Below, one piece after another: positions 14,846 through 44,212 of a stretch of 54,502 nucleotides of DNA. The stretch spans positions 1-54,502 of the forward strand of contig DULU01000092.1 in assembly GCA_012840225.1 (NCBI GenBank), written 5' to 3'. Position numbers and translations under genes: made by a program. Source of the stretch: Bacillota bacterium. Lineage in GTDB: Bacteria > Bacillota > Limnochordia > DTU080. Below the pieces are notes generated by a model. That model did no database searches and had not been told where the DNA came from. It worked only from the letters and a program-made list of their open reading frames with translations. Each line of letters begins with the position of its first letter. Within the stretch, counting starts at the first letter, position 1.

Positions 14846-14958
14846 GACGGCATGAACCGGGCGCTTCATGTCCGGCCGGGTGGGTATAGAGAAGGAAGCG
14901 ATGAAGCGGGAGGTTGCTGCCGGGCATTGATGATGCGCTGCAGGTAATTTCCGTGGAG

Positions 14959-14979
14959 CATGTTCGTTGATCGAACGTG
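14959..14979 (+). promoter_or_regulatory. Hairpin abutting the rpsJ ribosome binding site
   Basis: CATGTTCG (14959-14966), loop TTGAT, CGAACGTG (14972-14979) form an 8-bp stem with one G-U pair. The 3' arm ends directly before AGGAGG, the rpsJ binding site, so folding could modulate initiation of the S10 operon. Function is inferred. The rest of the tuf-rpsJ gap shows no clear promoter. Confidence 0.45.
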
Positions 14980-43141: not shown

Positions 43142-44212
43142 CTATCTTATCATCAGGCGGCCGGGTGGACCAGCGACCATCCGGCCGATTGCTGTTGCCT
43201 TCATTCCTGCCTCCGCGGCGTCGGCCGCCAAGTCCGCCAATAGGCCCGGCACTTCTGCCTCGGGAAGGGTGATAAGCAACCCGCCTGAGGTGATGGCGTC
43301 GGCCAGCACAAACTGAAGCTCATCAGGGATGTGCTCCGCAAAGTCGGTGAAATTTTCGGCAAAGACCTTGTTGGCCCGGCTGCCGCCGCAGATGAAACCT
43401 TGACGGGCTAAATCCAGGGTGCCGTCGATTATGGGTATGCGGGCGGAATCCACCTCGACGGCGAGGCGGGAGGCGCTGGCCAGCTCATGCAGATGGCCCA
43501 GGAAGCCGAAACCGGTGACATCGGTACAGGCGGTGGCCCGATGGGCTAAAGCCGCCTCGGCAGCGCGGCGGTTCAGGTGCGTCATCACCGAGATAGCCCG
43601 CGACACAATCTCCTCAGGCAGCGTGGTGCGCTTCATAGCCGTGGTGATGATGCCTATTCCCAGCGGTTTGGTCAACACCACGATATCACCCGCATTAGCG
43701 CCGGCATTGGTGAGGAAGCGTCCGGGATGAGCGATGCCGGTGACGGCCAGGCCGTATTTCGGTTCCTCATCGTCGATGGTGTGGCCGCCGACGATCACCG
43801 CCCCGGCTTCCGCGACGGCATCCAGGCCTCCTCTTAAGATGTTGGCCAAAATCTCGAGGGGCAGTCGGTCCACGGGAAAAGCGGCAATGTTTAAACAGGT
43901 GAGCGGGCGGGCGCCCATGGCATAGATGTCGCTCAGGGCATTGGCGGCGGCGATGCGGCCGAAATAATAAGGATCGTCGACCACAGGAGCAAAGAAATCG
44001 ACCGTCTGCACCAGGGCGGTGTTATCGTCCAGGCGATATACCCCCGCATCGTCGAAAGTATTATTGCCGACCAGCAAATTCTTATCAGCAGTGGTTGAGG
44101 GCAGATGGCGCAGGACCTGCGCCAGGTCCGACGGACTCATCTTGCCCGCTCAGCCGGCTTTGTCGGTGAGCGATGTCAAGCGGATTATATCCCGTGACGA
44201 TGCCTCTGCCAT
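43142..44212 (-). CDS. selD: Selenophosphate synthase, selenocysteine-containing
   Basis: SelD makes selenophosphate from selenide and ATP, the selenium donor for Sec-tRNA and tRNA selenation. Read conventionally the frame starts at 44140 (MSPSDLAQVLRHLP) and lacks the catalytic loop. Reading through the TGA at 44152-44150 restores the family N-terminus: MAEASSRDIIRLTSLTDKAG, then Sec, AGKMSPSDLAQVL. The Sec (residue 21) aligns with catalytic Cys17 of E. coli SelD and K24 with Lys20. ATG at 44212 has GAAAGGGG upstream. The body (NTFDDAGVYRL, VGGHTIDDEEPKYGLAVTG, TDVTGFGFLGHL) is normal. Full product: 356 residues. Confidence 0.88.
44113..44152 (-). promoter_or_regulatory. SECIS-like hairpin after the selD UGA
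   Basis: Twenty bases after the UGA, GGACCT (44129-44124), loop GGCGC and AGGTCC (44118-44113) make a perfect 6-bp stem. The apical loop begins with G and starts 26 bases after the UGA, within the range known for bacterial SECIS elements that bind SelB. Confidence 0.7.

Follow-up and report, generated by a model that had tools for sequence, protein, structure and literature searches.

The question raised by this locus is whether the selD gene (selenide, water dikinase) of a Bacillota draft genome, located in the stretch of 54,502 nucleotides analysed here (the window), encodes a selenoprotein whose catalytic end is hidden by an in-frame UGA codon. If UGA is taken as a stop, the longest ORF begins at an internal ATG at position 44140 and comprises 332 amino acids, and conventional annotation would truncate the gene accordingly, as anticipated in the original prediction. 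When UGA is read through, the frame on the minus strand (43142..44212) starts from ATG 44212, reads MAEASSRDIIRLTSLTDKAG-UGA-AGKMSPSDLAQVLRHLP and continues up to the stop ending at 43142, giving a predicted product of 356 amino acids with selenocysteine (Sec) at residue 21. This frame includes an N-terminal extension of 24 codons 5' of the internal ATG (44141..44212, minus strand), which passes through the TGA at 44152-44150, codon 21 of the gene, with a Lys residue three positions downstream. The read-through protein matches the SelD family model TIGR00476 with 381.5 bits over model positions 1-309 of 311 (curated cut-off 125 bits), contains both AIRS and AIRS_C domains, and matches SelD of E. 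coli (PDB 3u0o, E = 9.7e-78), with homology on both sides of the UGA, as well as that of Aquifex aeolicus (2yye, E = 1.9e-69). Since the translation of the extension, RDIIRLTSLTDKAG-U-AGK, aligns with the N-terminus of E. coli SelD, SENSIRLTQYSHGAG-C-GCK, the open extension goes beyond chance, and the earlier proposal that it restores the family N-terminus holds with its coordinates exact. E. coli SelD requires Cys17 but can do without Cys19. The UGA (44150..44152, minus strand), the predicted Sec codon, lies at the position of this Cys17, aligning with the N-terminal Cys of GAGCGCK in E. coli and of SGCAAK in Aquifex, and the Lys is kept in both, so that the N-terminal loop with the catalytic Cys or Sec and Lys at +3 reads UAGK here, CGCK in 3u0o and CAAK in 2yye.

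Conservation of this codon was examined among relatives. A SelD-profile match above the cut-off is present in 32 of the 73 genomes of the class, mostly with exactly one in-frame TGA. Taking class loci together with relatives from named genomes, and including the gene under study, 67 SelD with a readable catalytic codon could be compared: 62 carry TGA and five carry TGT or TGC, with no TAA, TAG or any other codon. Besides the gene under study, TGA occupies the site in 26 SelD from the class and, among 36 readable ones from the genome collection, in 35, in line with the use of Sec at this position in relatives. All 67 have the N-terminal extension, and no relative among those examined starts normally at the internal ATG without it. 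The original prediction also regarded the Cys-to-Gly change two residues past the Sec as a further variation; this is in fact ordinary, as a second Cys at that position is found in only 15 of the 67 and is missing in 52, as here. Some relatives have other arrangements at this end of the protein. SelD of family f13 have a different N-terminus, mostly FCxGGG-U-TAK (L097, L098, L100, L101, L103-L107, L109, L111-L114, L122), and many of them another SECIS candidate, whose loop lies about +18 from the UGA, while a few relatives (L102, L110, L119, L123) have Cys at the catalytic site.

Two overlapping hairpins on the minus strand come into question as the SECIS element. The original prediction pointed to GGACCT/AGGTCC, that is GGACCU-GGCGC-AGGUCC (44113..44129), with arms 44129-44124 and 44118-44113 starting 20 bases past the UGA. 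This pairing does exist at that place; as the working SECIS, however, the hairpin UGGCGCAG-GUC-CUGCGCCA (44106..44124), with 8 bp and an apical G-GUC-C at +33 to +37 from the UGA, is most likely, judging from its energy, shuffling controls and covariation. The two share bases and are mutually exclusive, and the predicted energy of the 44124-44106 hairpin is -12.9 kcal/mol as compared to -10.0 kcal/mol for GGACCU-GGCGC-AGGUCC. According to the bacterial SECIS model applied, the apical loop has 3-9 nt and the upper stem 4-16 bp, a G lies within the first two loop positions, mostly as N1-G-[G/U]-N-N2, the spacing from UGA to the apical loop is 16-37 nt and the MFE is <= -7.5 kcal/mol (PMC13188914, Fig. 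2). The 44124-44106 hairpin conforms to all four constraints by its 3-nt loop on 8 bp, its G-GU-C-C, its energy and its spacing of 32 to 33 nt, the exact value varying with the assignment of the closing G-C to loop or stem. The local hairpin energy observed was reached by only 5 of 600 codon-synonymous shuffles encoding the same peptide.

The two were also compared by covariation in 21 distinct SelD sequences, which were picked by a protein motif (QV in register) and not by pairing. In this set 88.7% of the cells of the 44124-44106 helix are paired, 15 cells are changed on both sides as compared to 4.9 in shuffles, and the covariation score is 0.348 versus 0.169, neither value being equalled in any of 500 shuffles, although the helix was first picked in this very sequence, which biases the control counts towards it, and the sequences are related to one another. 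Compensatory changes are exemplified by Salibacterium (UGACGCAG/CUGCGUCA), a Neomarinimicrobiota MAG (UGGCCCAG/CUGGGUCA) and genome G055 (UGUCUCAA/UUGGGACA). In some relatives, namely Moorella, family f13 and G005, the helix is broken; their SelD genes have other hairpins and must use one elsewhere, given the loss of this one. That the gene is of the Sec type but is served by GGACCU-GGCGC-AGGUCC is improbable: this hairpin also fits the model, with a loop beginning GG and a spacing of 26 nt, and G019 has, in the corresponding position, similar arms that are fully paired about a GGUCC loop, but no pair of its helix is changed on both sides in the covariation set, 71.4% of its cells are paired versus 70.8% in shuffles, and it is disrupted in G012, G072 and G031, all of them close relatives. 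With no covariation, pairing at the shuffle level and lower stability, it was rejected as the main SECIS.

The original prediction had named absence of selA, selB and selC as an argument against a selenoprotein; all three were found in the genome, a draft of 3.55 Mb in 154 contigs with 96.6% completeness and 4.28% estimated contamination. tRNA-Sec with a UCA anticodon (76 bits) lies on contig G000:C56 and selB adjoins selA on G000:C91, so that selD, tRNA-Sec and selAB are on three different contigs of a draft with this estimated contamination. SelB of this genome (L162:9479-11719, minus strand, P0001) carries in its C-terminal half five tandem TVRAEA copies as well as a Ser/Pro-rich linker. 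In genome G019, tRNA-Sec, selB and Sec-type selD each occur in two copies (L052, L053, L094, L163), one set being clustered as selD-selC-selB at C1:368719-374604, and G005 has two tRNA-Sec genes. Family f8 includes two genomes, 100% and 97% complete (L175, G030:C124; L176, G027:C15), that contain selA, selB and tRNA-Sec but in which no SelD exceeds the cut-off; what matches the SelD profile best in them scores higher as ThiL. The window also holds an S10-Clostridia ribosomal protein leader (14893-14978, plus strand; RF03136, 41.3 bits).

Taken together, the proposal of a hidden selenoprotein is supported by the Sec genes present and by the TGA and extension common to relatives, and the gene almost certainly encodes a selenocysteine-type selenophosphate synthetase that would be made by UGA readthrough. 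Translation would begin at ATG 44212, SelB with Sec-tRNA-Sec would bind the hairpin 44124-44106, and Sec would be inserted at UGA 44152-44150, the catalytic position. The full-length SelD is then predicted to convert selenide and ATP to selenophosphate, which is used by SelA for Sec-tRNA; therefore, synthesis of SelD would need its own product.

A true stop at the UGA, with translation starting at ATG 44140 as automatic annotation predicts, is very improbable. The internal ATG and an open frame of 332 amino acids do exist, and UGA would act as a stop without SelB, but the catalytic loop would be missing from such a product, together with its catalytic residue and the Lys. Moreover, SelD genes throughout the class conserve the extension with its TGA, and the genome encodes the complete Sec machinery; conservation of the extension and TGA led to rejection of this explanation. 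Even less credible, and rejected on codon conservation, is that a Cys-type selD has acquired its TGA by nonsense mutation (pseudogene) or shows it through a sequencing error. TGC and TGT are indeed each one base away from TGA, and Cys is found at the site in a few relatives, but the same TGA recurs in the SelD of the class and of the genome collection, the remaining frame is intact and a covarying SECIS candidate is present.

The selenoproteome of the genome was searched by chosen families. A peroxiredoxin gene at G000:C120:65586-65987 (L166, L173) has an AhpC-TSA profile match that runs through one TGA, placing UGA at the peroxidatic Cys in FTFV-U-PTEL, where a second peroxiredoxin of the genome has FTFICPTEL, and this is likely a second selenoprotein of the genome. 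Its hairpin (loop AGUU, +18, -9.9 kcal/mol) fits the SECIS model and is not distinguished from chance by the codon-shuffle test (115 of 600 shuffles). No molybdopterin oxidoreductase, and hence no FdhA, was found in the genome; nor was a 2-selenouridine synthase found, and thioredoxin matches contain no stops inside. Searches for GrdA and GrdB gave no match, but their controls gave no signal either, so that this does not count as absence. The selenoproteome of this organism is apparently small. A broader reading, put forward tentatively as somewhat less probable than its opposite, is that one SelD SECIS, UGGCGCAG-GUN-CUGCGCCA in a constant position 26-44 nt past the UGA, may be an old shared element whose helix has been kept by compensatory change in Sec-type SelD genes across several phyla, and that the selenoproteome here may be very small, comprising SelD and the peroxiredoxin but neither formate dehydrogenase nor tRNA 2-selenouridine synthase.

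Among bacterial selenoprotein families, Sec-type SelD ranks second in how widely it occurs. In a reference set of 223 genomes, Sec-containing SelD account for 19% of SelD genes and Sec is always at the same position (PMC4561486). The gene described here resembles the Sec-type SelD (TIGR00476) of many Bacillota and other bacteria in sequence, Sec position, Lys at +3 and the Sec machinery in the genome, and nothing essential differs, except that Ala-Gly follows the Sec here instead of Gly-Cys, as is also the case in a Moorella sp. MAG (L126) and in G069 (L117). With Cys-type SelD of E. coli (3u0o) and Aquifex aeolicus (2yye, 2zod) it shares the sequence family, the N-terminal motif and conserved segments downstream, and the Aquifex protein likewise lacks the second Cys (GCAAK); these enzymes, however, have Cys where this gene has the predicted Sec, and need no SECIS. 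The SECIS of E. coli fdhF carries GCA at the upper end of its stem, and SelB reads the G and U of its apical loop, GGUC. The 44124-44106 hairpin has the same GCA and GGUC at these places, but its loop lies farther from the UGA. The correction of the gene model matters, as standard annotation would cut off the catalytic residue, and it documents predicted Sec use in the lineage of this draft genome. This selD is a plain member of the well-known Sec-type SelD; apart from the apparently small selenoproteome, what stands out from the known pattern is the corrected SECIS, whose covariation extends across phyla, a concrete and testable element common to SelD genes of several phyla.
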